Source: a virus. Taken from it: 64,000 nucleotides of DNA. Positions 14,082-62,902 of the stretch are shown in pieces (within the stretch, counting starts at the first letter, position 1; each line of letters starts with the position of its first letter). The position numbers were made by a program, and so were the translations under genes. Location: the IMG/VR virus record IMGVR_UViG_3300023174_000133, positions 18,535-82,534 of that record, one strand, 5' to 3'. The notes beneath the pieces are model-generated. The model searched no databases. It was not told the DNA's origin and saw nothing but the letters and a program-made list of their open reading frames with translations.

Positions 14082-14123
14082 ATCATTATATATCAATGAT
14101 TAGTTCGAATCGCGAAAAAAGAA

Positions 14124-42740: not shown

Positions 42741-43664
42741 CTATGCAACAATTTTAACGTGTTGCTTTGAAATGTATTGAATTACTGCGAGTTCTTTCAT
42801 TTTCGCCTCGATGTCGCAATCGAAAGACAGGCCATAGTCATTAACAGGTCCATCAACAAAATCAGAATGCGCCTGCGGGATGACATCTTTGCCTTCACGA
42901 AGTGATGCAGATTCGCTGTAGTGCGTCAACTGCCGAACACCTGCAGGCCAAGTAGACGCTGCAAGTCGGAGTTCTTCTTCCTCGTTCATTCCTTCGCTCT
43001 TTCGAAATTTTGCATGGTGGAAATCGTGCACGATGGGAATTCCAACACGCTTGTGAATCATCTCATAGAGGTCGAGAGTCGAAAAGAGAGATTCTTTGTC
43101 GTCGTTTTCAACGGTGAGTCGAGTCTTGACGCAGTCAGGAAGTCGTTCGAAATTTTTACAAAAGCGTTCAGCTGCAGACGTTCGATCACCATGGGCACCA
43201 CCGGCGTGAATGTTAATCAATGCTTCCGGACTACGGGGAAGACCGATGTAATCCATGATTTTACCGTGGATAGTCAGGTCTTTGATACAATTGAGAACAA
43301 CATGCTCGTGTGGCGAAGTAAGACAATTAAACTGGCCTGGATGGAACGTGAGACGCTGATTAGAACGTTTCGCGATTTCACCAACTTCACGAAGCACCTC
43401 ACTGATTTCTTGCCAATCTGGGAGCGACTCCATCTCGTATTCAGATGCCCACGGGAAGAGGTCTGAAGTCATGCGATATACTTCGAAACCGTTCTTCGCA
43501 TTCCATTCCACAATCCCGCGAAGGATTTTTACATTTTCGAGCGAGAGCTTCGAAGCGTGCGGCAAGCCTTTCTCAAGCCAGGTGCGCTTGATCATAGACC
43601 GAAAGCCGCCCTGCTTTCCGAGGGTAACGTTAAGACACGCATAACCGAAACGAACGTGAGACAA
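42741..43664 (-). CDS. uvsE: UV-damage endonuclease
   Basis: 307 residues from a TTG with AGGAGG five nt upstream; a longer ATG form has no ribosome-binding site. RFGYACLNVTL, LTFHPGQFN, NIHAGGAHGDR, VENDDK and VHDFHHAKF are typical of the UVDE/UvsE TIM-barrel. It nicks 5' to UV photoproducts using metal ions and belongs to a phage repair set with the ligase and helicase. Confidence 0.93.
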   Translation of the reverse strand: MSHVRFGYACLNVTLGKQGGFRSMIKRTWLEKGLPHASKLSLENVKILRGIVEWNAKNGFEVYRMTSDLFPWASEYEMESLPDWQEISEVLREVGEIAKRSNQRLTFHPGQFNCLTSPHEHVVLNCIKDLTIHGKIMDYIGLPRSPEALINIHAGGAHGDRTSAAERFCKNFERLPDCVKTRLTVENDDKESLFSTLDLYEMIHKRVGIPIVHDFHHAKFRKSEGMNEEEELRLAASTWPAGVRQLTHYSESASLREGKDVIPQAHSDFVDGPVNDYGLSFDCDIEAKMKELAVIQYISKQHVKIVA

Positions 43665-43713
43665 TCGAACCTCCTGTTCTACTAATAACATGTTTTACGA
43701 TAAAAGGGAAACG

Positions 43714-51597: not shown

Positions 51598-51705
51598 CTA
51601 AACTTTGAACAGAATATAGAATCCGACCATGTTTCCACCCATGTTCATGGCTAACACCGGATCGACGGTCGCCTCGATCACCTCGATCATGATCGAACAC
51701 GCCAT
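51598..51705 (-). CDS. Micro-protein, possibly membrane-associated
   Basis: 35 residues (MACSIMIEVIEATV then NMVGFYILFKV). Follows the tagged gene at 51718 with GGAG overlapping the stop. Hydrophobic ends. Could be a translated fragment only; moderate to low confidence. Confidence 0.45.
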   Translation of the reverse strand: MACSIMIEVIEATVDPVLAMNMGGNMVGFYILFKV

Positions 51706-51717
51706 TCGTCGTAACTC

Positions 51718-52539
51718 CTAGTTGACAGCGACGACGATGAGCTTGCCCTTGATGTTCCTGCGGAACTCCTCAGCGACTCTTTTCACATGCGTCTGTAAAA
51801 TTTTTAAAGCCTCAGCGACTTCGGGGTCGACAGCATCCGGATTGAACACAAATCCTCGGGTCGTCAGGAGCTCTTGACACACCACCTCGGCCAGCGCGTC
51901 TGACGGGCCCTGGATGACACCGTTTCTCGCAGATGCCATGGTGAGCGCGGGATACCACACGTTGTTGTCTTCTCCACCGATAAGCTCGAGGCCATCAATC
52001 TCACCACCTTCGTAGATCAGTGAATCACGAAGCGTCCCGTAGGACGGTGATATGGCGTATGTGTCGTTTTGATTGTCAAGCATCGCGTGGAAAATCATCC
52101 ACGGCGTCGCGAGGTTATCCTTCACTGTCGATGATGTTGTGTAGAGGATGACAACATCATTTGGCGATAGCGATTCTGGCACTTTAAACCCGTATGAGCG
52201 CAGGGTCTCGATTCCCTTCGTTCCCAGGGGCTCGATCCGGGCCCGGGTATCGTCAATGTAGTCGTACACACCGGCACCGACTCCAATCATCGGTGCAATC
52301 CATACATTGTAAGGAATGTGTGCGAGGTGCTTCGCAGCGAGGGTCTTGAATCGACCACTCTTCGCGAACCTCTCTGCACCGGGCTTATTCATTGTGCTAG
52401 TATCGTCAATGCTTGATACAAAGCTCGGCGCGTCGGTGCCACTATCGACCGGATCTAAGCTTCCGGCGTATGGCATCTCATCGATCCTACTCAATTCCTC
52501 ACGAATAATCTTTCTTAACTGTCCCTCTGCGATTCTCAT
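51718..52539 (-). CDS. Tagged protein, paralogue of the 12.0-12.8 kb gene
   Basis: 273 residues. MRIAEGQLRKIIREELSRID then DEMPYAGSLDPV. It matches the 12-kb protein at IPYNVWIAPMIG, TPWMIFHAMLDNQ, LTMASARNG, CQELLTTRGF and the final EEFRRNIKGKLIV. The pair indicates an old duplication within the genome. No fold recognised. Confidence 0.82.
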   Translation of the reverse strand: MRIAEGQLRKIIREELSRIDEMPYAGSLDPVDSGTDAPSFVSSIDDTSTMNKPGAERFAKSGRFKTLAAKHLAHIPYNVWIAPMIGVGAGVYDYIDDTRARIEPLGTKGIETLRSYGFKVPESLSPNDVVILYTTSSTVKDNLATPWMIFHAMLDNQNDTYAISPSYGTLRDSLIYEGGEIDGLELIGGEDNNVWYPALTMASARNGVIQGPSDALAEVVCQELLTTRGFVFNPDAVDPEVAEALKILQTHVKRVAEEFRRNIKGKLIVVAVN

Positions 52540-52560
52540 TTTTCTATGTCTCCTGCAATT

Positions 52561-52567
52561 CTATATA
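52561..52567 (-). promoter_or_regulatory. TATATAG element upstream of a tagged gene
   Basis: TATATAG inside GCTATATATATAG, 22 nt before the ATG at 52539. Confidence 0.5.
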
Positions 52568-52569
52568 TA

Positions 52570-52802
52570 TAGCTTTTCGCATGGAAAAAGCTTCCGGAAA
52601 TTTTTTGAGCGCGGGGGCACTCGGAAAACGCACGTGTACAGGAAAATTTGCCCTCTGGGGGCGGGAGGGACAGCGAGTCGGTTTGGGAAAAAGTTCCGGA
52701 AAAAATTTTCACGGGCTAAGCCCTAGGCAGGGCCAGAAGCGCCCCCAGAGTAGCCCCCAGACGGGGCCCTGAAGCCGGCCCTAGAGGGGGCCCTTGGGGG
52801 CC
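52570..52802. other. G+C-rich intergenic region with runs of GGGCCC
   Basis: ~230 nt with repeated GGGCC/GGCCC and GGGGGC blocks and two TTCCGGAA-like inverted half-sites (near 52590 and 52695). No plausible gene. May hold a strong structure, terminator or origin-like element. Confidence 0.45.
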
Positions 52803-52922
52803 TTATTTCCGGGTTGCCGCCACAGCCTGGCCGAGTACTGTACCGAGTACTGGTACGATGGCGAGGGGTGCCATTTTCCAGAGTGCGAGGCCGAGGGTGA
52901 CGAGTTGGGATTCGGTGGGCAT
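52803..52922 (-). CDS. Micro-membrane protein
   Basis: 39 residues with one hydrophobic helix (MAPLAIVPVLGTVLGQAVAA) and a good ribosome-binding site (GGAGGAAACC). Preceded by the TATATT promoter at 52957. Confidence 0.62.
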   Translation of the reverse strand: MPTESQLVTLGLALWKMAPLAIVPVLGTVLGQAVAATRK

Positions 52923-52956
52923 CTGGTTTCCTCCGTGGTGGGATTGTTATACAATC

Positions 52957-52984
52957 AATATAACATGCTTATGGGAGGTGGACA
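52957..52984 (-). promoter_or_regulatory. TGTCCA-N16-TATATT promoter
   Basis: -10 at 52957-52962, -35 at 52979-52984; A-rich block upstream. Faces the micro-membrane gene. Confidence 0.72.
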
Positions 52985-53001
52985 GGCGACGCGTACATTT
53001 T

Positions 53002-53262
53002 TTAGATGATTTGTCGGGCGAGTTCGGTTTTGCCTGTGACTGGGTGGGTGTATTCGAGGATGGCTTCGAGGTTGCCGTCCCAGCCCCAGACGACGCCTGT
53101 GATGGTGGCTGGGATGCGTTGGAGGGAGCCGATGAGGTCGAGGTCGTAGTGGGTGGGGGTGCCGCGGAGTTGGGTGGAGGCGCGATCGGCGATGGAGATG
53201 CGGGCTTGGCGGAGTTCGAGGTGGGCGGTGCGGAGGACGGATTCGATGTGTTCTTCGTTCAT
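53002..53262 (-). CDS. Small hypothetical protein
   Basis: 86 residues, ATG after AGGGGAGAGAAC. Helical first half (IESVLRTAHLELRQARIS) and strand-rich second half (GVVWGWDGNLEAILEYTH). Unknown. Confidence 0.62.
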   Translation of the reverse strand: MNEEHIESVLRTAHLELRQARISIADRASTQLRGTPTHYDLDLIGSLQRIPATITGVVWGWDGNLEAILEYTHPVTGKTELARQII

Positions 53263-53286
53263 TGTTCTCTCCCCTCTGGTGGAGAT

Positions 53287-53314
53287 AATATAACATGTCT
53301 ACTGGAAGGGGACA
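53287..53314 (-). promoter_or_regulatory. TGTCCC-N16-TATATT promoter
   Basis: -10 at 53287-53292, -35 at 53309-53314; upstream A-rich block AAAAAAGCGCC. Faces the gene at 53262. Confidence 0.68.
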
Positions 53315-53344
53315 GGTTATGGGGCGCTTTTTTGTCGGGGTTTT

Positions 53345-53578
53345 TTATTGTTTGCTTGCGCGTGATTCTTCGAGGGGAACGAGGCTGCTATGGATGACCC
53401 AACCGATTCGACCCCCGTAGAAGACTTTGAGGTAGGCCCGCGCGGCGGTGGATCGACCACGGGACTCGGGTGGTTCGCCCATGTCGAGAACGATGTCTCC
53501 GGGTTCTAACCTACCCCAGAGGTCGTCGAACTCTACCCGCCAGAAGGGTGCACTCTCGTATGTGCATTTATAGAGCAT
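53345..53578 (-). CDS. Small SH3-like protein (KC family)
   Basis: 77 residues. MLYKCTYESAPFWRVEF, LEPGDIVLDMG, LKVFYGGRIGWVIHSSL. Shares a signature with three neighbours: leading KC, a GDIVL strand and a late GxIGW. Overlaps the upstream member by 11 nt. Confidence 0.7.
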   Translation of the reverse strand: MLYKCTYESAPFWRVEFDDLWGRLEPGDIVLDMGEPPESRGRSTAARAYLKVFYGGRIGWVIHSSLVPLEESRASKQ

Positions 53579-53786
53579 CGGGTTCCGCCAGCACTTTGAG
53601 GCAGTCGCGTGTGAGCCAGCCGATGTGGCCCTTGTAGAAGACTCGTGAATAGGAACGGGAGAAGGGGTGGGGTGTTATTTCTGCATCCAGACTGAGGACG
53701 ACGTCTTCTGGTTCGAGGATGACGATGCTCTTTGAGAAGTTATCGTTCCATAGGGAGACTCCTTTGTACATGCACTTCAGGAGCAT
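53568..53786 (-). CDS. Small SH3-like protein (KC family)
   Basis: 72 residues. MLLKCMYKGVSLWNDNF, LEPEDVVLSLD, YSRVFYKGHIGWLTRDCL. Same signature as 53345-53578. Probably co-transcribed with 53790-53987. Confidence 0.7.
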   Translation of the reverse strand: MLLKCMYKGVSLWNDNFSKSIVILEPEDVVLSLDAEITPHPFSRSYSRVFYKGHIGWLTRDCLKVLAEPDAL

Positions 53787-53789
53787 AGG

Positions 53790-53987
53790 TCAGTCCGTCT
53801 CTTTTTCTTGCCAGCCTTGGCCCCACCACCAGCTGATGTGAGATTGGGGTTTATTGTCGAGGGAGATTCGCCAGTCGCTCCACTCGTCGAGGGGTGGGAG
53901 AACTGAGGTTACCTTAGCGGTGATGGGGTTGCCGCGGGAGTCTTCTCCAATCCAGATGTCACCGACTTGAGGAATGCGATCTGACAT
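53790..53987 (-). CDS. Small SH3-like protein (intact copy of a duplicated gene)
   Basis: 65 residues. IPQVGDIWIGEDSRG, TAKVTSVLPPLDEWSDW, SHISWWWGQGWQ. A second, truncated copy of its 3' half lies at 54342-54464, ~90% identical in DNA. Confidence 0.7.
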   Translation of the reverse strand: MSDRIPQVGDIWIGEDSRGNPITAKVTSVLPPLDEWSDWRISLDNKPQSHISWWWGQGWQEKETD

Positions 53988-54007
53988 TACCTAACCTCCA
54001 TGATAGC

Positions 54008-54036
54008 AATATAATATGCTCGCCCGTGGGTGGACA
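54008..54036 (-). promoter_or_regulatory. TGTCCA-N17-TATATT promoter
   Basis: -10 at 54008-54013, -35 at 54031-54036. Faces the gene at 53987. Confidence 0.72.
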
Positions 54037-54042
54037 GGTTAC

Positions 54043-54267
54043 TTACTCACTTTTATTCCCCCCAGACGAGATACAATGATCGACACCGATCAGTTTGGTG
54101 CAGAACTCCACGAATTGTTCCTCGGAGTCAAAGTGGAAAACAGATTGAGGGGCAGGAATTCCATCCGATGTACAGTTCCAAAGATGGAGGTGTAACCCGC
54201 CTTTACCGTCCTCGTTCACCTCAACTCCCACGTTACCCACGAGAAACTTTCTGTTGAATGTATCCAT
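54043..54267 (-). CDS. Small hypothetical protein
   Basis: 74 residues: strands VGNVGVEVNEDGKGGLHLHL and a helix HFDSEEQFVEFCTKLIG. Unknown; promoter at 54298 upstream. Confidence 0.62.
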   Translation of the reverse strand: MDTFNRKFLVGNVGVEVNEDGKGGLHLHLWNCTSDGIPAPQSVFHFDSEEQFVEFCTKLIGVDHCISSGGNKSE

Positions 54268-54297
54268 GTTTTACGTTTCCACCTGTTTGATGTTTAG

Positions 54298-54326
54298 AAT
54301 ATAATATGCTTGCCCATGGGTGAACA
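54298..54326 (-). promoter_or_regulatory. TGTTCA-N17-TATATT promoter
   Basis: -10 at 54298-54303, -35 at 54321-54326. Faces the gene at 54267. Confidence 0.72.
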
Positions 54327-54341
54327 GGAGGATGGCGAAGA

Positions 54342-54464
54342 TTATTCTGCTTCTTGCCAGCCTTGACCCCACCACCAGCTGATGTGAGCTGGTAGTTTGT
54401 TGTCGAGGGAGATTCGCCAGTCGCTCCACTCATCGAGGGGTGGGAGAACTGAGGTTACCTTAGC
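54342..54464 (-). pseudogene. Truncated duplicate of the 53790-53987 gene
   Basis: Encodes AKVTSVLPPLDEWSDWRISL and HISWWWGQGWQEAE nearly identically to the intact copy, but its 5' third is missing. The sequence runs straight into the end of the upstream gene (stop TAA of 54460-54711 lies at the junction). No start codon or ribosome-binding site of its own. A longer open frame through it is a chimera with antisense material. Confidence 0.75.
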
Positions 54465-54711
54465 GATCGACCTTGGAAAGGATAAAAACTCGGAGGGAGT
54501 GCGAGACAACATAGCCGACTTGGCCGTCGAAGAGGACTTTATAGTAAGACACGACGCCAAGGTCGAGTGGGCCGTCTGATGCATCCAGGACTAGGCAAAC
54601 CTTTCCTTCTCCTATTTTTCCGAGCTCGCGGTTTCCGACCCCTCTTCTGATTTGGGTATCGGCGACAGACCATATCGTTGTGCCACCTGAACGCATGCAC
54701 TTCATGAGCAT
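54460..54711 (-). CDS. Small SH3-like protein (KC family)
   Basis: 83 residues. MLMKCMRSGGTTIWSVAD, EGKVCLVLDASDGPL, YYKVLFDGQVGYVVSHSL. Its last codons run into the duplicated segment, so its C-terminus may be recent. Overlaps its upstream neighbour by 10 nt. Confidence 0.68.
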   Translation of the reverse strand: MLMKCMRSGGTTIWSVADTQIRRGVGNRELGKIGEGKVCLVLDASDGPLDLGVVSYYKVLFDGQVGYVVSHSLRVFILSKVDR

Positions 54712-54917
54712 GGGGAGTCCTCAAGGAGTTTGAGGCATGAGCGCCTGATGTGTCCGGTCCTTCCCTTGTGGAGGACCTCTACGTGGGCTGAGTGGGGGAA
54801 GGGGTCTATATCGAGGACTATGTCTCCCTCTCGGACGAGGTCAACGAAGCGACCGTCCGCGTTACTCCAGAGGTGTTCTGGAGCTGGAGATACACATAGG
54901 TAGAGCTGACCCTTCAT
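54702..54917 (-). CDS. Small SH3-like protein (KC-related)
   Basis: 71 residues. REGDIVLDIDPFPH, VEVLHKGRTGHIRRSCLKLL; same signature without the leading KC. Unknown role. Confidence 0.68.
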   Translation of the reverse strand: MKGQLYLCVSPAPEHLWSNADGRFVDLVREGDIVLDIDPFPHSAHVEVLHKGRTGHIRRSCLKLLEDSPCS

Positions 54918-54930
54918 CGTTGCTTCCCGC

Positions 54931-55383
54931 TCAGATGATGTGCATCACACGGGTGGATGTGTAGAGTGTGACCCGGTCTGGGTGTTCGTAGGGTGACCAC
55001 TCCGAATGTTGTTCTTCTACGACTTCGCGTGAGTAGGTCTCTCCGTCGACCACAACTTCTTTACGGGTCCGGGTCTGATTGATTTGTCGGCGTTCGACCC
55101 GGCGGGTGAGGTTCCACCATCCACCATCATCGCATTCGACAGTCGCGCCGTCCTGGGCGTAGCGGTATTCGAATGATTTGGAGTCAGGTCCGCAGGGATT
55201 GACCACATCCTCGCAGTAGTCGGCGAAGACGTCCCGGACGAATGACTCGACACCTTCACGGGTGGTGAAGTAGAGATTGAGCCAGTCCCCTTGTCCGGTG
55301 AGACGCTCGGACCATACCTCGAGGTTTTTGTGGAGCCAGTAGTTGTCCTGGGCGGAGTTGACGTAGTAGTATTCGGTCCGCAT
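54931..55383 (-). CDS. Hypothetical protein
   Basis: 150 residues: aromatic N-terminal half (EYYYVNSAQDNYWLHKN, WLNLYFTTREGVESF) and a basic middle (RRVERRQINQTRTRKEVV). Preceded by the promoter at 55410 and a strong ribosome-binding site (AGGGGAGAGGAACG). Unknown. Confidence 0.65.
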   Translation of the reverse strand: MRTEYYYVNSAQDNYWLHKNLEVWSERLTGQGDWLNLYFTTREGVESFVRDVFADYCEDVVNPCGPDSKSFEYRYAQDGATVECDDGGWWNLTRRVERRQINQTRTRKEVVVDGETYSREVVEEQHSEWSPYEHPDRVTLYTSTRVMHII

Positions 55384-55409
55384 CGTTCCTCTCCCCTTCT
55401 GATGGATAC

Positions 55410-55437
55410 AATATAACCTGCTTGCGTGAGGTGAACA
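55410..55437 (-). promoter_or_regulatory. TGTTCA-N16-TATATT promoter
   Basis: -10 at 55410-55415, -35 at 55432-55437, inside the inverted repeat AACCTG/CAGGTT. Faces the gene at 55383. Confidence 0.75.
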
Positions 55438-55444
55438 GGTTATA

Positions 55445-55750
55445 TTATAGGAAAGTGACTGCTCCGACGTGGAGCTCTGTCCAGGTCATGTGTCCTGAGT
55501 TGAGTGAACGGTGAACAACCTTGAGGTAGACGAGGTTGTTGTCTTCGCTGTCCATCCAGATTTGAGAGATGGTCCCTTCGACGTCCCTGAAGGTCGCCTT
55601 CCGGTCGGGAGTGCTGTATTCGTACGGCTGGGAGAAGGTGACCCGCTTTCCAATGAATGGTGCGAAGCGTTCCGCCTCGAGCGTCGCCTGGTAGTCTTCG
55701 ACGTCGGCTTCGATTCCAGCTGCGATGCGGTTGAGTTCGTGCTTGCTCAT
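55445..55750 (-). CDS. Hypothetical protein
   Basis: 101 residues. Helical start (AAGIEADVEDYQATLEAERF) and a strand-rich end (LVYLKVVHRSLNSGHMTWTE). Unknown. Confidence 0.62.
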   Translation of the reverse strand: MSKHELNRIAAGIEADVEDYQATLEAERFAPFIGKRVTFSQPYEYSTPDRKATFRDVEGTISQIWMDSEDNNLVYLKVVHRSLNSGHMTWTELHVGAVTFL

Positions 55751-55774
55751 CGTTCCTCTCCCCTTGATGGAGAT

Positions 55775-55802
55775 AATATAACCTGTCTGCCCGTGTTGAA
55801 CA
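55775..55802 (-). promoter_or_regulatory. TGTTCA-N16-TATATT promoter
   Basis: -10 at 55775-55780, -35 at 55797-55802. Faces the gene at 55750. Confidence 0.75.
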
Positions 55803-55817
55803 GGTCGCGGGGCACGT

Positions 55818-56579
55818 TTATTTTTCGAGTGTTACGCCGCCGTCTCTTGAGACAAAGCCTTTAGCGAAGCGTGAGCGATAGTACTCTTCGATGTCGGGAT
55901 CTGTCATCCTTCGGGTTGCCATGTCGTGATATTCGGTAGCGAGTTCTGCACCGATCCATTGTCTCCCAAGGAGTTTCGCTGCGAGTGTCGTTGAGCCTGA
56001 ACCGTTGAATGGGTCGAAGACCGTATCGCCTGGGTCTGTCCTGTTTTCGATGATGTATGAGAGGAGGCCAACAGGTTTCTGAGTTGGGTGGCCGACGTAT
56101 TCTTTTGTAGAGACTTTACCGACGTAGAAGGCTTTGGATCTCTTTTTCGGTTCGCCGTCGATTGTGACGAGTCGAGACTTTTCTGCCGTTCCTTTGCTCA
56201 GGCCGATTACAAGTTCGTGCGTTGTTCCGAAGACGTTTAGATTGCCTGATGCCATGTCTCCCTTTGACCACACGAAGTCGTGGTTGTACTTGAGAGGACC
56301 CCCGTGGATGTGTTGTGAGATGCGGAGGAAGAAGTCGAGGCGTCCGAACATGTAGAGGGATTTTTTCGGTTTAAGGACGCGATGAACTTCTGAGAAGAAG
56401 AGGTCCCAATCGAGTTGGGAGGAGTCTTTGTCGTTCTTGATCCTGGGGAGGATTCTTTCTTGCTTGGCGGTGATGTTGAGCTGATAGTCGATGCCGTATG
56501 GAGGGTCAGTTAGGACCAGGTCGATACTGGAGTCCGGTAGTTGTGCTAAGACTTCGAAACAGTCGGCGTGATGTAGCAT
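55818..56579 (-). CDS. DNA methyltransferase (beta-class, N6-adenine or N4-cytosine)
   Basis: 253 residues. Motif IV DPPYGIDY comes first and motif I FDPFNGSGSTTLAAK comes near the end, the beta-class order. HPTQKPVGLLSYII precedes motif I as usual. It would methylate an amino group in DNA. Its start overlaps the stop of the GIY-YIG-like gene (TAATG), so the two likely form a restriction-modification unit. Confidence 0.9.
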   Translation of the reverse strand: MLHHADCFEVLAQLPDSSIDLVLTDPPYGIDYQLNITAKQERILPRIKNDKDSSQLDWDLFFSEVHRVLKPKKSLYMFGRLDFFLRISQHIHGGPLKYNHDFVWSKGDMASGNLNVFGTTHELVIGLSKGTAEKSRLVTIDGEPKKRSKAFYVGKVSTKEYVGHPTQKPVGLLSYIIENRTDPGDTVFDPFNGSGSTTLAAKLLGRQWIGAELATEYHDMATRRMTDPDIEEYYRSRFAKGFVSRDGGVTLEK

Positions 56580-57235
56580 TATCTTCCTGAGAGGTAAGAG
56601 ATGAGTCTTGGGTGACCGTGGCGCTCACGCCATTTGATTTCGACAAAAGACGACATCGATTGATCACACTGGTAATAGTATACTCTCCATTCGTGGTTTA
56701 CATGTTTCGGCCACGTTACGTTGATACCGTTCCAGAGGAAGATGTTACCAGTCGATGTGTTGATCCAGGATACTTCTTGTTGAGTCAAGTTCATTTTGAG
56801 CAGGTCTTCTTTGTTTGAGACTCGAGATCCCTGGACGTAGATGACCTTGTCTTTTGGCTTCGTTGAGAATGCTTTCTTGACGTGTGAGCCCGGGCTTTGG
56901 GGTTGGGTGAATATGTCGACAGAGATCCCTGAGAGACCGGCGCATGTGTCTCTGAACAGGTGGTTTTTCATGCGCCCGCGCAAATCACCAGCGACGCCGT
57001 TATAGATGATTTCGAAGCCATCATTCATCTTTTGCGGGAACGGGTGCTTATGCATCGAGTGTTCAACGGGTTCTGTCGTGGCGATCCAGTACGCGCAGTT
57101 CTTTTTCGGTAGACTGAGCAGGTCAGTTTCGGTTTTGATCGTGGCGTATGGGAGTCCATCAAGACTCGCCTCGGGAGCCCATCCATCTTTATTGAGTTTG
57201 TTAAACAGCTCGATAGATTGTTGTTCTGTTAGCAT
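56579..57235 (-). CDS. Putative GIY-YIG restriction endonuclease
   Basis: 218 residues. CAYWIATTEP followed by EIIYNGVAGDLRGRMKNHLF fits the GIY-YIG core: two strands with Tyr, NG, then the catalytic Arg on the helix. A later WRVYYYQCDQSMSSFVEIKW could supply the catalytic Glu. The adjacent, co-translated methyltransferase makes a restriction enzyme more likely than a homing enzyme. Specificity cannot be read. Confidence 0.62.
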   Translation of the reverse strand: MLTEQQSIELFNKLNKDGWAPEASLDGLPYATIKTETDLLSLPKKNCAYWIATTEPVEHSMHKHPFPQKMNDGFEIIYNGVAGDLRGRMKNHLFRDTCAGLSGISVDIFTQPQSPGSHVKKAFSTKPKDKVIYVQGSRVSNKEDLLKMNLTQQEVSWINTSTGNIFLWNGINVTWPKHVNHEWRVYYYQCDQSMSSFVEIKWRERHGHPRLISYLSGR

Positions 57236-57250
57236 CTTGTTCCCTATTAG

Positions 57251-57278
57251 AATATAACCTGTCTACTCCTGATGGACA
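57251..57278 (-). promoter_or_regulatory. TGTCCA-N16-TATATT promoter
   Basis: -10 at 57251-57256, -35 at 57273-57278; A-rich block AAAAAAGCGCC upstream. Faces the R-M pair. Confidence 0.75.
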
Positions 57279-57295
57279 GGTCGCCCGGCGCTTTT

Positions 57296-57364
57296 TTAGA
57301 AGGATTCGAAGACCAACCAGAGGATGGTTACGATGATGATGACTGGGACAACGACACTCAGCAT
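57296..57364 (-). CDS. Micro-membrane protein (22 residues)
   Basis: MLSVVVPVIIIVTILWLVFE then SF: one transmembrane helix. GGAG lies nine nt upstream and the gene overlaps the end of the SH3-like gene before it. Very short but well formed. Confidence 0.52.
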   Translation of the reverse strand: MLSVVVPVIIIVTILWLVFESF

Positions 57365-57546
57365 TCGCCGCAACTCCTGCGGAGGTACACGTTCCTTGTG
57401 GGGGTTGAGAACACGAGACCCGACCTGTGGAAGAGGATATAACGTTTTTCGTCCGTCCCCCGTCTCCTCTCCACCTTTAGCACAAGAGCATCCATGTCGC
57501 TCCTCTTGCCCCGGATGCCCACACGGTCACCAGCCCTTATGGTCAT
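57358..57546 (-). CDS. Small SH3-like protein
   Basis: 62 residues. MTIRAGDRVGIRGKRSDMD, ALVLKVERRRG, RYILFHRSGLVFSTP. ATG overlaps the preceding stop (ATGA). Confidence 0.66.
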   Translation of the reverse strand: MTIRAGDRVGIRGKRSDMDALVLKVERRRGTDEKRYILFHRSGLVFSTPTRNVYLRRSCGEC

Positions 57547-57704
57547 AGGCGGACCTGGGGTTGGGGCACCTGGAAGACCCCTTCCAGGCGACGGAGGTCC
57601 ACTTCTGTGGGTTCCCGGTCCTTACGACGGAGTCGGGTCTCGTCCCCACTGAGGTCGAAGATGTCCCGGAAGGAGCCGCGTTCGGTGTATCGGAACTCAG
57701 TCAT
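57543..57704 (-). CDS. Small basic hypothetical protein
   Basis: 53 residues, Arg- and Glu-rich (MTEFRYTERGSFRDIFDLSG, RLRRKDREPTEVDLRRLEG). ATG behind GGAGAACAAG; coupled to the SH3-like gene. Too short for the usual cut-off but well supported. Confidence 0.62.
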   Translation of the reverse strand: MTEFRYTERGSFRDIFDLSGDETRLRRKDREPTEVDLRRLEGVFQVPQPQVRL

Positions 57705-57738
57705 CTTGTTCTCCATTCCATACGATTGTTATACAACC

Positions 57739-57766
57739 AATATAACCTGCTAGTGGGAGGCGGACA
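57739..57766 (-). promoter_or_regulatory. TGTCCG-N16-TATATT promoter
   Basis: -10 at 57739-57744, -35 at 57761-57766; A-rich block AAAAGTGCGC upstream. Faces the small-gene run at 57.3-57.7 kb. Confidence 0.74.
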
Positions 57767-57784
57767 GGTTGCCCGCGCACTTTT

Positions 57785-58207
57785 CTACTTCGAGTTGAAC
57801 AGGAACAGACCTGCGAACATAAGACCAGAAGCGACGAGTTTGTTGAGGGTGAGTTCTTCTCCCAGGAACAGGACGGTGAGGACCATAGTGATGGCTGGAC
57901 TCATCGAGACGAGTGTGACGATGACGCCCGGGTCGTCTGAGGCTTTGAGGAGGACACCTAACAGGACAGTCGCGACGATACCAAGGAAGACGCAGAGAGC
58001 ACCCCAAATGATGCCCCGTGTATCCCACCCAGCGACTCCTGTTTTGCTGATGATGTACAACCACACAGGGATGCACAACGCATACACAGCACCCGCGACT
58101 ACCTGGAGCTGGTAAGGGTGGATACGGTCGACCGCCAGTTTCCTGAAGAAAGACGAGACCCCGAAGAGACCGATAGACGCCAGGAGCATGTAGAGTTGTT
58201 TAGACAT
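57785..58207 (-). CDS. EamA-like small transporter (half-size)
   Basis: 140 residues from ATG at 58207. Four or more hydrophobic helices (LYMLLASIGLFGVSSFF, GVIVTLVSMSPAITMVL and the end EELTLNKLVASGLMFAGLFL) with the drug/metabolite transporter EamA pattern, half the usual two-domain length. It may pump or import small metabolites. Uncommon in phages. Confidence 0.7.
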   Translation of the reverse strand: MSKQLYMLLASIGLFGVSSFFRKLAVDRIHPYQLQVVAGAVYALCIPVWLYIISKTGVAGWDTRGIIWGALCVFLGIVATVLLGVLLKASDDPGVIVTLVSMSPAITMVLTVLFLGEELTLNKLVASGLMFAGLFLFNSK

Positions 58208-58218
58208 GTTTGTGTTTG

Positions 58219-58677
58219 TTACTTCATGAAGCAGAGTTCTGCGCAGACGTCGTTGCCCTTCTTGGACGTGAAGAGCGGGGCACCACACCCCTTGCAGCAA
58301 CCACCGGTTCCCACTGCCGCCCAGACGTCCCGAAGTCGCTGGATGGTCCGGTCTGCAATTGCGTCGATCTCACCGGTTCGGAAGACTCGGTGGTCTGCCT
58401 TCGCTACGGGTCGGGTGCCACCGTCTCGGGTGGTGTAGAGAGCACAGGCTCGGATGGCGTCAGTGCCGTGTTCTCGGACCTGGGGGACTCCACGTTCTTC
58501 TACGATGGTGGTGTAGACCACAACCCGGATACCCTGTTTCTTGTGAGGGCGGGAGAAGACCAGCTCCTTGGTCCCGGGTTGTGCAGCTTCGCGGATGAAG
58601 CCCGCGCTGTCGAGTCGGGTGAGGAGTTCGACAGCGAGGACTTGACGGTGCATCTCGATCTTGGGGTCGTACGGCAT
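58219..58677 (-). CDS. Zinc-ribbon hypothetical protein
   Basis: 152 residues from ATG at 58677. Alpha/beta body (IRVVVYTTIVEERGVPQV) and a C-terminal CCKGCGAPLF...CAELC zinc ribbon. Unknown; shares a transcript with the transporter gene. Confidence 0.65.
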   Translation of the reverse strand: MPYDPKIEMHRQVLAVELLTRLDSAGFIREAAQPGTKELVFSRPHKKQGIRVVVYTTIVEERGVPQVREHGTDAIRACALYTTRDGGTRPVAKADHRVFRTGEIDAIADRTIQRLRDVWAAVGTGGCCKGCGAPLFTSKKGNDVCAELCFMK

Positions 58678-58701
58678 GTTCACTCTCCGCTTGATGGAGT
58701 T

Positions 58702-58729
58702 AATATAACCTGTTAGAGGAGAGTGGACA
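58702..58729 (-). promoter_or_regulatory. TGTCCA-N16-TATATT promoter
   Basis: -10 at 58702-58707, -35 at 58724-58729. Faces the gene at 58677. Confidence 0.73.
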
Positions 58730-58747
58730 GGACGTGGACGAACTTTT

Positions 58748-59194
58748 TCAGTACATTCTGAGGTCGTCGAGACAGAGAGTCATCGTGCCGTGGTCAGTAT
58801 CGAGGACAACACATACCTGGTCTGTGTATTCGAAACCAACGATGCGGGGAGGCATTGAACCGTCAGTTAGTGATTCGATACCATCGACTGTCATTCCGAC
58901 GTATTCTTCGTAGGTCTCGGCGATCGACGTCGTATCATGTACTTCTTCGGGTCCCATCTCGAGGCCGTGGCCGTCGAACGCTGCCTTCCTCTCTTCTGGA
59001 GATGCTGCTGAACAGTCGTAGCCTAACTCTTCAAGACGGTCGTCGACGCCTTGTTCCATGGCATCAAGCATCATGCTTAGTTCTTCTGATGACAGTTCTG
59101 GTTCTCTTGGTGCTGCAACGCCTGGTGCCATCTCGACGAGGCGACGGGCTTCTTCGCGGATGATTTGACGTAGCTTTGATTCTGTGATACGCAT
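58748..59194 (-). CDS. Tagged acidic protein
   Basis: 148 residues from ATG at 59194. MRITESKLRQIIREEARRLVE is the tag. A helical acidic domain follows (ELSSEELSMMLDAMEQGV, ETYEEYVGMTVDGIE) and a C-terminal strand VCVVLDTDHGTMTLCL. TATATAG is 41 nt upstream. Confidence 0.78.
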   Translation of the reverse strand: MRITESKLRQIIREEARRLVEMAPGVAAPREPELSSEELSMMLDAMEQGVDDRLEELGYDCSAASPEERKAAFDGHGLEMGPEEVHDTTSIAETYEEYVGMTVDGIESLTDGSMPPRIVGFEYTDQVCVVLDTDHGTMTLCLDDLRMY

Positions 59195-59234
59195 TGGTTG
59201 TTTCCTTCTCGGGTGGGGATGGCACCCGTTGTTT

Positions 59235-59241
59235 CTATATA
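59235..59241 (-). promoter_or_regulatory. TATATAG element upstream of a tagged gene
   Basis: TATATAG in TTGATATATAGAAAC before the gene at 59194. Confidence 0.48.
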
Positions 59242-59253
59242 TCAAGTCCCGGT

Positions 59254-59463
59254 TCATTCTCCTGGACGAAGTTCTCGCCACCAACACTCGGCCAGTCCCA
59301 CAGCCCTGAAGTTCGCATCGACGAAGGGCGGTAGCGTCCTATCTGTCCCAGTGTACATCCCCTTTTGACCCACATCCCCCAGGACGAATGCTACCCAATA
59401 CCACTTCCCAACAACTGGCATCGGGTCCCCTGGATACATAATGAACTCGCTCAAATCTTCCAC
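59254..59463 (-). CDS. Small SH3-like protein
   Basis: 69 residues. The GTG at 59463 has AGGAGG seven nt upstream; the GTG six nt further upstream overlaps the previous stop as GTGA. VVGKWYWVAFVLGDVGQKGM and FRAVGLAECWW fit the barrel pattern. Confidence 0.62.
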   Translation of the reverse strand: MEDLSEFIMYPGDPMPVVGKWYWVAFVLGDVGQKGMYTGTDRTLPPFVDANFRAVGLAECWWRELRPGE

Positions 59464-59465
59464 AC

Positions 59466-59756
59466 TCACTCCTCCTTCGGTTGTTTTCTTGGTCTGCCTC
59501 GCCCTCGTTTCTGTGGCCGGTCCCATGGCAGGGTCTTCTTGACCGGTTCTGGAACGGGTTGCTGGACACTCTCTGTGACTTCTGAAGGTGTCCACTCGGG
59601 ATTTGCAGTGTAGTATACGGACCCTTCGTGCTGCACCTTCAGGACCTTACCCCCGTAGATTCGGGCGAGGACGAGGAGATGGGTGTCTGGCGGGACAAGG
59701 GTTCGTTTGCTGAGGTCGTTCGCCAGGTTGAGGCGGGTCGGTGCGGTGGTAATCAC
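59466..59756 (-). CDS. SH3-like protein with AT-hook-like tail
   Basis: 96 residues from GTG overlapping the upstream stop (GTGA). A beta-rich middle (HLLVLARIYGGKVLKVQHEG) and the C-terminal QKRGRGRPRKQPKEE, an AT-hook core GRPRK flanked by Lys/Arg. DNA-minor-groove binding is likely. The barrel may contact a partner protein. Confidence 0.64.
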   Translation of the reverse strand: MITTAPTRLNLANDLSKRTLVPPDTHLLVLARIYGGKVLKVQHEGSVYYTANPEWTPSEVTESVQQPVPEPVKKTLPWDRPQKRGRGRPRKQPKEE

Positions 59757-59959
59757 TTGGCCTCCACCCGACCGTACACCCCGGCGATGTAGGCGTCCAG
59801 CGCCATGCTGCGCTGGATCGGTGGGATGTTCCTTTCCGCGCACATGCTGCAATCGAAGAGGACTGGCGTCTCGTTGAAGAGCTCGAAGAACCCCCCAGTG
59901 CTCGGGTTCTTGCAGGTGTCGCAGGTGTGGGAGCCGCGGGTGTATTCGAAGGAAGCCAT
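59753..59959 (-). CDS. Small zinc-finger protein
   Basis: 68 residues from ATG behind GGAGAGAGAAC. CDTCKNPSTGG and CSMCAERNIPP give two CxxC pairs. Coupled to the AT-hook gene. Confidence 0.65.
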   Translation of the reverse strand: MASFEYTRGSHTCDTCKNPSTGGFFELFNETPVLFDCSMCAERNIPPIQRSMALDAYIAGVYGRVEAK

Positions 59960-60003
59960 GTTCTCTCTCCACGTTGCGGGCGGGATTGCCCTTCCATGAT
60001 TAG

Positions 60004-60031
60004 AATATAACCCGTTCCCATCCAGTGAACA
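60004..60031 (-). promoter_or_regulatory. TGTTCA-N16-TATATT promoter
   Basis: -10 at 60004-60009, -35 at 60026-60031; A-rich block CTAAAAAGTGTGC upstream. Faces the zinc-finger/AT-hook unit. Confidence 0.72.
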
Positions 60032-60048
60032 CCTCACCCGCACACTTT

Positions 60049-60222
60049 TTAGAGATTATCTTCGTCCCTCCCTTCCAGCATCTGACCAACGAACCCGAGG
60101 AGACTCGTCACAATGAGTGAGATGACCATCGCCTCGATGGCAGTACCACCCGCCCTGATGACCCAGAAACCGATGAAGTACCCAGTGGCCAGGAGCGACA
60201 CGAAACGTAGAGCTGCGCTCAC
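60049..60222 (-). CDS. Small two-helix membrane protein
   Basis: 57 residues from GTG overlapping the previous stop (GTGA). Hydrophobic helices LRFVSLLATGYFIGFWVI and AIEAMVISLIVTSLLGFVG. Unknown. Confidence 0.62.
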   Translation of the reverse strand: MSAALRFVSLLATGYFIGFWVIRAGGTAIEAMVISLIVTSLLGFVGQMLEGRDEDNL

Positions 60223-60347
60223 AAGAGCACTATCGCGACGCTTACCGCGACCATCTCGAAAGGCGATCGGCCGAGTTGGATAAGTTCGTAGCCGGCCGTG
60301 AATACGAGGATGCACCGTGCCAGCAAGTTAGCGAGTTCTTGATTCAT
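60219..60347 (-). CDS. Micro-membrane protein (42 residues)
   Basis: Two hydrophobic stretches (LANLLARCILVFTAGY and MVAVSVAIVLL). ATG overlaps the zinc-ribbon gene stop (ATGA) and its stop overlaps the next GTG. Part of a coupled membrane-protein unit. Confidence 0.6.
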   Translation of the reverse strand: MNQELANLLARCILVFTAGYELIQLGRSPFEMVAVSVAIVLL

Positions 60348-60592
60348 TCATTCTCCACTATGTTTATGTTTCGAGAAGTTTCGAGCAACGTCAAGTTGAA
60401 AGTCGCTGTATATCCACACGCCTGGCACGACCTGTAACCCGCCAGGAAGTTCACATGCATGTTCATGTCCTGGGGGATGAGTTGCACCTGAGTCGTGAAC
60501 AACTCGCCACGCTCGTCAACCATGGGATTCATAGTTCCAACTTTACACCACGGGCACACTGCCTGCCCGAACACACGATTCTTGTCACTCAT
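60344..60592 (-). CDS. Zinc-ribbon protein
   Basis: 82 residues. CPWCKVGTMNP and CQACGYTATFN form a classic four-Cys ribbon. May bind nucleic acid or a partner protein. Coupled on both sides. Confidence 0.68.
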   Translation of the reverse strand: MSDKNRVFGQAVCPWCKVGTMNPMVDERGELFTTQVQLIPQDMNMHVNFLAGYRSCQACGYTATFNLTLLETSRNINIVENE

Positions 60593-60819
60593 TCTTTCAC
60601 CAAAGTTATGTCGTTCTTGAAGACAACTCGCCGATCACCTGTGACTGTGTTCTGGATTGCCCAGGCGTGTTTGCCATGACAACCCCAGGGGAAGAAGTCG
60701 AGAACAATCCAGGGAGTTTCATCGACCGCGAAAGGTGGTCTCTGTTGGACGCCGATGTCGGATGGGCGCGCCCACCGGACCAGGTCTCCCTTCTGTGGAT
60801 TGTTCGCCGAAGCAGTCAT
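60589..60819 (-). CDS. Small SH3-like protein, apparently leaderless
   Basis: 76 residues. QKGDLVRWARPSDIG, PWIVLDFFPWGCHGKHAWAI and RRVVFKNDITLV fit the barrel family. The -10 of its promoter ends six nt before the ATG, so the transcript should begin at or near the start codon. Confidence 0.66.
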   Translation of the reverse strand: MTASANNPQKGDLVRWARPSDIGVQQRPPFAVDETPWIVLDFFPWGCHGKHAWAIQNTVTGDRRVVFKNDITLVKE

Positions 60820-60825
60820 GTTGTT

Positions 60826-60854
60826 ATTATACCTTGTCCTCACCCGTTTGAACA
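60826..60854 (-). promoter_or_regulatory. TGTTCA-N17-TATAAT promoter giving a leaderless mRNA
   Basis: -10 TATAAT at 60826-60831 and -35 at 60849-60854; ATG of the SH3-like gene starts at 60819. Lies within the 3' end of the gene at 60827-60958. Confidence 0.72.
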
Positions 60855-60958
60855 GGCGTAACTGCGCGTCCGCTCTCAAATCCTGCCTTGAACCCACGGT
60901 AGTGGAAGTAGAGGCAGGAGCCCATGTAGAACAGGGTCAGGCCACAAAAGATAATCAT
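60827..60958 (-). CDS. Micro-membrane protein (43 residues)
   Basis: One hydrophobic helix (MIIFCGLTLFYMGSCLYF), then a basic tail RGFKAGFESGRA. GGAG six nt before ATG. Contains a downstream promoter in its 3' codons. Confidence 0.58.
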   Translation of the reverse strand: MIIFCGLTLFYMGSCLYFHYRGFKAGFESGRAVTPVQTGEDKV

Positions 60959-60961
60959 TCA

Positions 60962-61183
60962 TTACTCCATTGGAAAGGGGAGGAAGCCATCTGGGTCCTC
61001 CCAGGCTAATAGGTCTACTGGGTCTGGGGGAGGGTTGGGCACCAACTTATGGATACCCTTCCAGTTCGCAACCTGTTCGTGCCACCCAACGGGACGGAAC
61101 CAGGCAGCCACAACACCAATGACACCCACAACAATCGCGCTATTGATGGTCGTGAGCTCTGAGATCGTATGAACGATGTTCAC
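60962..61183 (-). CDS. Small membrane protein
   Basis: 73 residues from GTG behind GGAGGCAAG. One helix (INSAIVVGVIGVVAAWF), then a Pro-rich PNPPPDPVDLLAWEDPDG tail. Unknown. Confidence 0.62.
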   Translation of the reverse strand: MNIVHTISELTTINSAIVVGVIGVVAAWFRPVGWHEQVANWKGIHKLVPNPPPDPVDLLAWEDPDGFLPFPME

Positions 61184-61200
61184 CTTGCCTCCACTCCAAC

Positions 61201-61228
61201 AATATAACCTGTCTGTGTCAGTTGAACA
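61201..61228 (-). promoter_or_regulatory. TGTTCA-N16-TATATT promoter
   Basis: -10 at 61201-61206, -35 at 61223-61228. Faces the gene at 61183; overlaps the end of the micro-gene at 61218. Confidence 0.72.
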
Positions 61229-61340
61229 GGACCTCAGCGCAATAAAGTCCGCACATGTACCAACCAAACAAGAGGGGTGGCGCCACGATGATGACCAGCC
61301 CCCACTTCTCAAAGAATTCGATGAAACGTACAAGGTTCAT
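61218..61340 (-). CDS. Micro-membrane protein (40 residues)
   Basis: One or two helices (WGLVIIVAPPLLFGWYMC). ATG overlaps the stop of the upstream gene (ATGA), so it is coupled. Contains Cys near the end. Confidence 0.6.
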   Translation of the reverse strand: MNLVRFIEFFEKWGLVIIVAPPLLFGWYMCGLYCAEVLFN

Positions 61341-61576
61341 TCTGAGTCCGCCCATTCGTAGGTGATTCGTTCTGTGGGTTCTTCTGATTGCTTGGCCGTT
61401 GCCCCGAAGCGTCCGGGGTCAACCCCCCACTTCTCACAGGCTCGACGGATCTCCGCTGCCTGGAAGGGACTCCACTGTACACCGTCACACCACCGCGAGT
61501 AATAGGCCCCAGCATAGTGCATGTCTCCAGTGAGGATGATCTTGACCAACTCATTCGACAGTGTGACGGCGTTCAT
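61337..61576 (-). CDS. Small hypothetical protein
   Basis: 79 residues from ATG at 61576. Helical, with LVKIILTGDMHYAGAYYSRW and an acidic Cys-containing middle (IRRACEKWGVDPGRFGATAK). Unknown. Confidence 0.6.
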   Translation of the reverse strand: MNAVTLSNELVKIILTGDMHYAGAYYSRWCDGVQWSPFQAAEIRRACEKWGVDPGRFGATAKQSEEPTERITYEWADSE

Positions 61577-61583
61577 GGTTACC

Positions 61584-61721
61584 CTACTTAGTGGTGTTGA
61601 AGTAGTCGGCCACGGCGTTGCGTGCCAGGTCCTCGGCCCGTTGGCGGGGATACCCGAGGGAGAGTGCACGGTAGAGGACCGATTCGAATACGATGTCGAG
61701 TTCTGGCTTGATGTCGTTCAT
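61584..61721 (-). CDS. Small hypothetical protein
   Basis: 45 residues from ATG behind CAGGAGGCAGGGACA. Helical (DIVFESVLYRALSLGYPRQR) with basic patch. Unknown. Confidence 0.58.
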   Translation of the reverse strand: MNDIKPELDIVFESVLYRALSLGYPRQRAEDLARNAVADYFNTTK

Positions 61722-61741
61722 TGTCCCTGCCTCCTGCTTAG

Positions 61742-61769
61742 AATATAACCGACTGAGTGTATGTGAACA
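61742..61769 (-). promoter_or_regulatory. TGTTCA-N16-TATATT promoter
   Basis: -10 at 61742-61747, -35 at 61764-61769; A-rich block upstream. Faces the genes at 61.2-61.7 kb. Confidence 0.72.
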
Positions 61770-61788
61770 GGTCGTCAGCACACTTTTT

Positions 61789-62079
61789 TCAATGTTGCTT
61801 GCGCAATTCCACTTCGATGGGGGTCTCCTTTACACACGAGAGCGAGGTCTCACGGTACCCCTTGAGAGCGAAGCACACCACGTCGTGGCGACCCTGGGGG
61901 TGGAGCTCGACCAACCGTCCACCCAGCCACGCCACCTCTGCCGACGCTTCCGAGATACCCTTCGTCTTCGAGGTGAACCAGGACGAGCCGAAGACGGAGC
62001 ATACAGTGACGAAGATGATTATCGAAAGGAAGACCAGAGCGGCAGTGGACTGGGATAGGAACTCTTTCAAGCGTTGCAT
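61789..62079 (-). CDS. Small membrane protein
   Basis: 96 residues from ATG behind GGAGAGAAG. One helix (STAALVFLSIIIFVTVCSVF), then a soluble domain with two Cys (VCFALKGYRETSLSC). Unknown. Confidence 0.62.
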   Translation of the reverse strand: MQRLKEFLSQSTAALVFLSIIIFVTVCSVFGSSWFTSKTKGISEASAEVAWLGGRLVELHPQGRHDVVCFALKGYRETSLSCVKETPIEVELRKQH

Positions 62080-62101
62080 CTTCTCTCCATTTGATACTAT
62101 C

Positions 62102-62129
62102 AATATAACCCGTCCTCGTCCAGTGGACA
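62102..62129 (-). promoter_or_regulatory. TGTCCA-N16-TATATT promoter
   Basis: -10 at 62102-62107, -35 at 62124-62129; A-rich block upstream. Faces the gene at 62079. Confidence 0.74.
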
Positions 62130-62149
62130 GGTCACCCGCTCACTTTTTT

Positions 62150-62494
62150 TCAGCTCGCGAGCGTTTCGAAAGCGTCGTCCAATTCCTCAGGGGTGCGGGC
62201 AGCGGGGACTTCAGCCACCTTCTTGGCCCGGGCTCGTTGACGCTTCGCCGTCAGGCTGGCACGGTCGGTGTAGATGGAACCAGCCTCGACGTCCTCCTTC
62301 CGAGCCGCCAGGGCCGCCCGGGCCACCATCCGGAAGTGCTCGGCCTGGTCGGCAGCCCAACGATAGAGCTGGTCCTTCGCCTCGAGGAGGGTCATGCCCC
62401 CGTCTTCGACAACCAAGTACGGGTCGTGCACGTGCTCAACAATCTGGGGGTAGGACTCGTCGTTCCATTCAACCGTGTATCGCTTCGTTGCCAT
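62150..62494 (-). CDS. Small hypothetical protein
   Basis: 114 residues from ATG behind GGAGGTCAACG. Begins MATKRYTVEWNDESYPQIVE; helical middle (LYRWAADQAEHFRMVARAAL) with a basic KRQRARAKKVAEVPAAR stretch. Possibly nucleic-acid binding. Confidence 0.6.
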   Translation of the reverse strand: MATKRYTVEWNDESYPQIVEHVHDPYLVVEDGGMTLLEAKDQLYRWAADQAEHFRMVARAALAARKEDVEAGSIYTDRASLTAKRQRARAKKVAEVPAARTPEELDDAFETLAS

Positions 62495-62520
62495 CGTTGA
62501 CCTCCGCTGTTGATGTTCTG

Positions 62521-62548
62521 AATATAACCGACTGACTGGACTTGGACA
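62521..62548 (-). promoter_or_regulatory. TGTCCA-N16-TATATT promoter
   Basis: -10 at 62521-62526, -35 at 62543-62548. Faces the gene at 62494 and is divergent from the next plus-strand promoter. Confidence 0.74.
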
Positions 62549-62604
62549 TATCACCCGCGCACTTTTTTTGCGAAAAAAAGTTTGAACTATTCGCACTTTC
62601 GATA

Positions 62605-62633
62605 TGTTCACGAACACACCAATCGGTTATATT
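62605..62633 (+). promoter_or_regulatory. TGTTCA-N17-TATATT promoter (plus strand)
   Basis: -35 at 62605-62610, -10 at 62628-62633; drives the first hairpin-leader gene. Confidence 0.74.
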
Positions 62634-62636
62634 ACT

Positions 62637-62667
62637 AACATCGGAAGGGCAATTCCGCCCGCCGATA
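62637..62667 (+). promoter_or_regulatory. 5' leader hairpin (copy 1)
   Basis: Pairs ATCGG/CCGAT and GGGC/GCCC with the conserved loop AAT(T)CC. The second copy at 62974-63000 has TTGG/CCAA in the outer stem, a compensatory change. Confidence 0.65.
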
Positions 62668-62683
62668 AAACGAGAGTGTGAAT

Positions 62684-62902
62684 ATGCTGCCGACCGACCT
62701 CAAGACTGGTGTCGTCTACTGCTGGTGCTACGACGACGGCCAAGGCCCCTACCCCGCCAACGACCAACGTTTCGTGCTCACGCGCATCGACCTGGCCGCC
62801 AACGAAGCCGACACCCTCGTCGTCGCGGGTCCGTGCACGGGCGAGACCGGCACCATCACCGACCTCGACCTGCTCTACGACGCGATGGTCGCCCCGGCCT
62901 AA
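62684..62902 (+). CDS. Small SH3-like hypothetical protein
   Basis: 72 residues from ATG at 62684 (an ATG after CGAGAG; a GTG two codons earlier is too close to the ribosome-binding site). TGVVYCWCYDDGQGPYPAND, RFVLTRIDLAANEADTLVV. Notably G+C-rich. Confidence 0.65.
   Translation: MLPTDLKTGVVYCWCYDDGQGPYPANDQRFVLTRIDLAANEADTLVVAGPCTGETGTITDLDLLYDAMVAPA

Follow-up and report, generated by a model that had tools for sequence, protein, structure and literature searches.

The gene pair and its phage setting

The two genes described here lie on the minus strand of a 64,000-nucleotide stretch of DNA, which we call the window and which spans positions 18535-82534 of a virus record 82.5 kb long. The first gene, ORF1 (56579..57235), encodes a protein of 218 amino acids that we read as a divergent, GIY_YIG_2-like member of the GIY-YIG nucleases. 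The second, ORF2 (55818..56579), encodes a beta-class N6A/N4C DNA methyltransferase (MTase) of 253 amino acids. The stop codon of ORF1 and the start codon of ORF2 share one base, the A in the centre of a TAATG junction (56577..56581, minus strand), and Shine-Dalgarno-like stretches precede both ATGs (AGGGA at 57245-57241 for ORF1, AGGAAG at 56588-56583 for ORF2). The gene order and the TAATG joint had been pointed out in the initial annotation; coordinates, strand and one-base overlap proved exact, and the observation as a whole was confirmed.

Upstream of ORF1 lies a promoter-like element (AAAAAAGCGCCGGGCGACCTGTCCATCAGGAGTAGACAGGTTATATT, 57251..57297, minus strand), in which a -35-like CTGTCC (57279-57274) and a -10-like TATATT (57256-57251) are separated by a 17-nt spacer. 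This element, about 47 bases long, is recurrent. Its core, RACAGGTTATATT / ACAGGTTATATT, was found 18 times in the window (2.7 would be expected on the basis of shuffles), and most of the listed copies are followed by an ATG at a distance of a few tens of bases. An A-run is followed by a GCGGGTGACCTGTCCAC-like segment, about 11 nt and then ACAGGTTATATT, so that part of the element resembles a CCTGT...ACAGG inverted repeat with a -10 box. The copies are located at window positions 52900-62700 and scattered elsewhere, mostly on the minus strand and ahead of many small genes. Judging from these sequence features, the element is likely to represent a phage promoter family. No copy separates the two genes, and the next one, recognized by the recurrence of the core, directly follows ORF2 (55775..55821, minus strand); the pair therefore appears to be one two-gene unit. 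In this sense, the earlier proposal of a single promoter for both genes holds, with promoter function itself remaining putative.

The large subunit of topoisomerase II encoded in the window is 55% identical to its counterpart in LR756502, a 642 kb uncultured phage, and the window also contains T4-like replication genes (DNA ligase, both topoisomerase II subunits and a helicase). Gene content and similarity thus indicate that the window most likely belongs to a jumbo phage and that its relatives are the metagenomic phages of 630-640 kb. Within the region 51700-62700, the accessory genes at 52-59 kb have a GC content of about 52-62%, compared with 41-47% for replication and tail-fibre genes sampled from other parts of the window, and the nuclease-methylase pair is intermediate (48-51%, with 48% for ORF1).

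Several other genes on the minus strand of the window are worth recording. Positions 42741-43691 encode a phage-borne UV-endonuclease, UvdE (PF03851, 2.4e-55), and positions 57785-58213, in the accessory region, a small EamA-like transporter (PF00892, 4.4e-10). Small paralogous genes (M.LKCMY..., GDIVLD...) stand in tandem at 53345-54917, where a stretch coding for AKVTSVLPPLDEWSDWRISLDNK is present twice, which suggests recent local duplication. Finally, a SegE-type GIY-YIG homing-like endonuclease gene (PF19835, PF01541; 32% GC) is located at 13425-14096. Its product is 47% identical to an enzyme in LR756502, and its relatives carry homing endonuclease annotation.

ORF1 and its Bacteroidota homolog

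ORF1 itself had no match in Pfam, PHROG, NCBIfam, PADLOC or PDB, and direct homology searches in phages, plasmids and IMG/VR were equally blank; nor was a solved structure for its nuclease family found by sequence search. Motifs are more informative. Both GIY-YIG half-motifs, followed by an arginine in the helix, are present as is expected of the superfamily: a GIY-equivalent CAYWI at residues 47-51 (57083..57097, minus strand; Y49, W50 and I51 are conserved in the homolog described below) and the YIG half-motif with its helix, GFEIIYNGVAGDLRGRMKNHLF, at residues 73-94 (56954..57019, minus strand; Y78, G80, R88 and H92 conserved). On a matrix of 22 columns built from 21 GIY-YIG sequences, the half-motif IIYNGVAGDLRGRMKNHL of ORF1 scored 17.1 bits, a value reached by one in 3,000 shuffles of ORF1 (mean -2.4 bits). 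Three of 8,904 control ORFs scored higher: a clear GIY-YIG protein that is itself one of the 21 sequences in the matrix (L068), an ORF inside a gene annotated as GIY-YIG endonuclease (L056), and an ORF without annotation that looks like GIY-YIG by motif (L132, SYIGITNHYIRRCRQHQK).

Further towards the C-terminus, alignment places a putative metal-binding residue, Glu199 (56639..56641, minus strand), in VEIKWRERHGHPRLISY; its catalytic role is predicted from the GIY-YIG superfamily. In its surroundings E, W, R, G, P, L, S and Y are conserved in the homolog (VEIKWR..G.P). The C-terminal asparagine of many GIY-YIG nucleases is missing from the expected place after Glu199 in both ORF1 and the homolog, but this residue is not universal in the superfamily and is absent, for example, in Slx1 (survey, PMC1564403). 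AlphaFold runs without an alignment gave mean pLDDT values of 33 and 32.

The homolog came from about 400 genomes searched within a single phylum, which includes a Paludibacter genome and is hence Bacteroidota. One genome (G729) had relatives of ORF1, in two adjacent pieces (1.1e-12 and 9.9e-9) that tblastn joins at 4e-23; the joined match extends across two frames and some 190 residues, at about 35% identity. The reading frame of this homolog is broken near a poly-A run, and there may be a second break at the start, close to another such run. Sequencing error and decay are possible causes. The N-terminal piece matches GIY_YIG_2 (PF20815, 9.1e-6, 26.2 bits versus a cut-off of 22.4). Common to both proteins are YWI.T..PV.HS.H, IIYNG.A.D, the R and H of the helix, SGIS.DI and a C-terminal E..WR...G.P.L.SY. 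A profile of ORF1 and the homolog, compared with the GIY-YIG set by profile-profile alignment (hhalign), gave P = 1.2e-5 over the YIG part. Together with the half-motif score and the PF20815 match, this supports the GIY-YIG-like core proposed in the initial annotation, and we conclude, on sequence grounds and by way of the homolog, that ORF1 is of GIY-YIG ancestry.

Other leads were followed and dropped. Marginal matches in the same genome search (G473) and in further searches are not counted as homologs, and weak matches in the first phylum sample (E 0.016-0.1) appear to be chance, as are Salmonella phage matches with E of about 2, which lie in antisense frames. Pattern scans guided by an auxiliary alignment that contained invented conservative substitutions and served purely as a search aid returned 119 viral and 41 genome stretches, none of which was confirmed. 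Nearly all matches to the pattern YNGxAGDL are capsid-like proteins, and E.xWR...GHP gave two matches, both by chance. The three related 630-640 kb phages (LR756502, LR745206 and LR756504) have MTases but no relative of ORF1.

The homolog locus (L276:6800-9377, contig C60) consists of three abutting genes on one strand, in the order PF01555 MTase, GIY_YIG_2 homolog and MjaI restriction enzyme. The MTase gene codes for 431 amino acids, with a PF01555 domain (8.7e-45) and an SNase tail (4.8e-7), and matches one of PADLOC's Type II MTase models at 6.7e-186. The gene directly downstream of the homolog encodes the MjaI restriction endonuclease (RE_MjaI, PF09568, 1.8e-48). By reading, the flanks are ordinary chromosomal genes (gamma-glutamyltransferase-like and holo-ACP-synthase-like). 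As in the phage pair, a full-length homolog of ORF1 adjoins a beta-class MTase gene on the same strand; unlike in the phage pair, the MTase precedes the nuclease, MjaI follows, the locus is chromosomal and the frame of the homolog is broken.

The ORF1 family thus adjoins a beta-class MTase at two of two known sites, a small sample. As one of these sites is a canonical Type II restriction-modification (R-M) operon, the association supports a restriction-linked role. However, since the Bacteroidota operon already holds a restriction enzyme, the family may be accessory, for example a nicking or processing helper of R-M loci that is recruited beside different MTases. That MjaI fills the restriction role next to a homolog with a broken frame would also fit a decaying or accessory gene. 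The partner MTases indeed differ, with DPPY in ORF2 versus SPPY and an SNase tail in the Bacteroidota enzyme, and with different best PADLOC models. On the other hand, nothing next to the phage pair looks like a further restriction enzyme, the direct neighbours tested being without a Pfam nuclease match, and we regard an accessory role as unlikely, if worth keeping in mind. Why some R-M loci should have a third nuclease-like gene, as in this M / GIY-YIG / MjaI operon, is a question raised by the arrangement itself.

The initial annotation had also considered a homing enzyme, that is, a homing or free-standing mobile endonuclease located by chance ahead of an orphan MTase. The SegE-type gene at 13425-14096 shows that the same phage fragment carries a true homing-like GIY-YIG enzyme, and the position of the bacterial homolog between M and R genes is a possible spot for an inserted element. 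However, the SegE-type gene is far richer in AT than ORF1, the homolog likewise adjoins an MTase, and ORF1 shares stop-start coupling and a promoter-like element with its MTase. The architecture is also different. According to a survey of the superfamily (PMC1564403), orthodox homing enzymes have an N-terminal GIY-YIG domain and C-terminal NUMODs, and restriction enzymes are "GIY-YIG with insertions and terminal extensions". ORF1 has an N-terminal extension of 46 amino acids, about 100 amino acids separating the YIG helix from Glu199, and no more than 19 residues thereafter, which leaves no room for a C-terminal DNA-binding module in this protein; Pfam finds no NUMOD in it. Extension, internal insertion and lack of NUMOD correspond to the restriction enzyme layout and favour restriction over homing, which we consider improbable.

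The methyltransferase

ORF2 matches Pfam PF01555 (9e-33), a PADLOC Type II MTase model (5.5e-43) and, in PDB, CcrM (3.7e-22). Motif IV, TDPPY (56496..56510, minus strand), in which DPP is invariant in an alignment of 10 MTases, precedes the SAM-binding motif DPFNGSGST, which the same kind of alignment locates C-terminal to it (55989..56015, minus strand). Both motifs are intact and stand in beta-class order. By these sequence criteria ORF2 is an intact beta-class N6-adenine/N4-cytosine DNA methyltransferase, in agreement with its earlier classification.

The best relatives of ORF2 are 30-37% identical, and none has a known target site. The nearest phage relatives, at 30-36% identity, are mostly lone MTases, some of them near capsid, terminase or metabolic genes. 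An ORF1-like neighbour was sought beside about 160-170 MTase relatives and found beside none; MTases of this kind are usually orphans. Each of the huge phages LR756502, LR745206 and LR756504 has several PF01555 MTases, at best 29% identical to ORF2 in the comparison made, and among the neighbours of eight MTases in these three phages there is no ORF1-like gene. In one of them, the 636 kb LR756504 (W03, loci L256 and L259), two PF01555 MTase genes lie in tandem.

These findings raise the possibility that ORF2, too, is an orphan, serving as protection from restriction by the host, and that the small gene preceding it is inactive or unrelated. Such MTases are common in phages (1,633 phage records), including jumbo phages (PMC7824862), and ORF1 has no library matches of its own. 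Against this, ORF1 overlaps the MTase gene, and its putative catalytic Y, Y, R, H and E have been kept between two proteins of 35% identity. Of all the readings discussed here, we give this one the least credence.

A proposed phage-borne restriction-modification-like module

On balance, we favour a reading of the pair as a phage-borne Type II R-M-like module. It combines an MTase that has intact catalytic motifs with a genetically linked nuclease gene, as Type II systems do. In this model, transcription from one promoter would yield one mRNA carrying both genes, and stop-start coupling at TAATG would have the MTase translated after the nuclease. The MTase would mark phage DNA with m6A or m4C at a short site, and the GIY-YIG nuclease would cut DNA lacking the mark, at this site or one overlapping it, so that the host chromosome or rival phages and plasmids would be attacked and phage DNA spared. 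The R-M pair of the initial annotation is supported with respect to a predicted nuclease fold, MTase class, operon structure, phage host and a relative in a bacterial Type II R-M operon. Its remaining part, in which ORF1 is the cognate restriction enzyme and ORF2 the protecting methylase, is predicted, and has to reckon with the MjaI enzyme already present in the bacterial operon.

A precedent exists in cyanophage S-PM2, which is included among the 19 members next to MTases in a survey of the Hpy188I family (PMC2630997). In S-PM2, the nuclease gene (S-PM2p241) runs into a Dam gene (S-PM2p001) across the record start, with an ATGA-type overlap. The likeness consists in a phage-borne nuclease of the GIY-YIG superfamily followed by an overlapping adenine MTase gene; the difference is that the MTase is of the D12 class (PF02086), whereas ORF2 belongs to PF01555. 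ORF1 itself is without similarity to the Hpy188I family as represented by the S-PM2 nuclease, with which BLASTP gave only a short chance match (E 1.3). The S-PM2 nuclease has no match in Pfam either, and a blank library result is therefore no argument against such enzymes. R.Eco29kI and R.Hpy188I resemble ORF1 in having a GIY-YIG core with insertions and terminal extensions as well as an MTase partner (PMC1952068, PMC2630997), but they represent separate subfamilies with no detectable similarity to it (PDB search, and the S-PM2 member as tested).

A GIY-YIG nuclease may also serve a phage without a strict Type II match of sites. T4 endonuclease II (DenA) belongs to the GIY-YIG nucleases and degrades the DNA of the host, whereas modified T4 DNA is spared (PMC1564403). 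ORF1 could be a host-degrading enzyme of this type, for which the coupled MTase would supply the mark. The T4 enzyme acts together with hydroxymethylcytosine, whereas ORF1 has a linked methyltransferase instead; moreover, no phage protein is detectably related to ORF1, and its one relative belongs to a Type II R-M operon. We judge this explanation improbable. A bolder version of the R-M-like module, in which an uncharacterised GIY_YIG_2-like nuclease is the jumbo phage's offensive weapon and destroys host or rival DNA while the phage's own DNA is methylated, is conceivable, and we put it forward as speculation.

To our knowledge, complete nuclease-methylase pairs in lytic-type phages have rarely been reported and hardly been tested. 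New in the present case are the nuclease subfamily, its location on a jumbo phage, and its odd place as the third gene of a bacterial MjaI operon. If the R-M-like reading is correct, the pair would be a second, independent case of a GIY-YIG nuclease and MTase on a phage after S-PM2, it would provide a candidate restriction-enzyme family, and it would represent a testable system for phage-phage exclusion or for attack on host DNA by methylation marking.

Viruses of eukaryotes offer a further comparison. Chloroviruses and marseilleviruses have complete R-M systems on adjacent genes, although with another nuclease family than the phage pair (PMC7253447). Degradation of host DNA is aided by the chlorovirus nucleases but not by those of marseilleviruses, which are, however, able to cut DNA from other marseilleviruses (PMC7253447). 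In melbournevirus, the nuclease, which is without recognisable motif, is transcribed before the MTase (PMC7253447).
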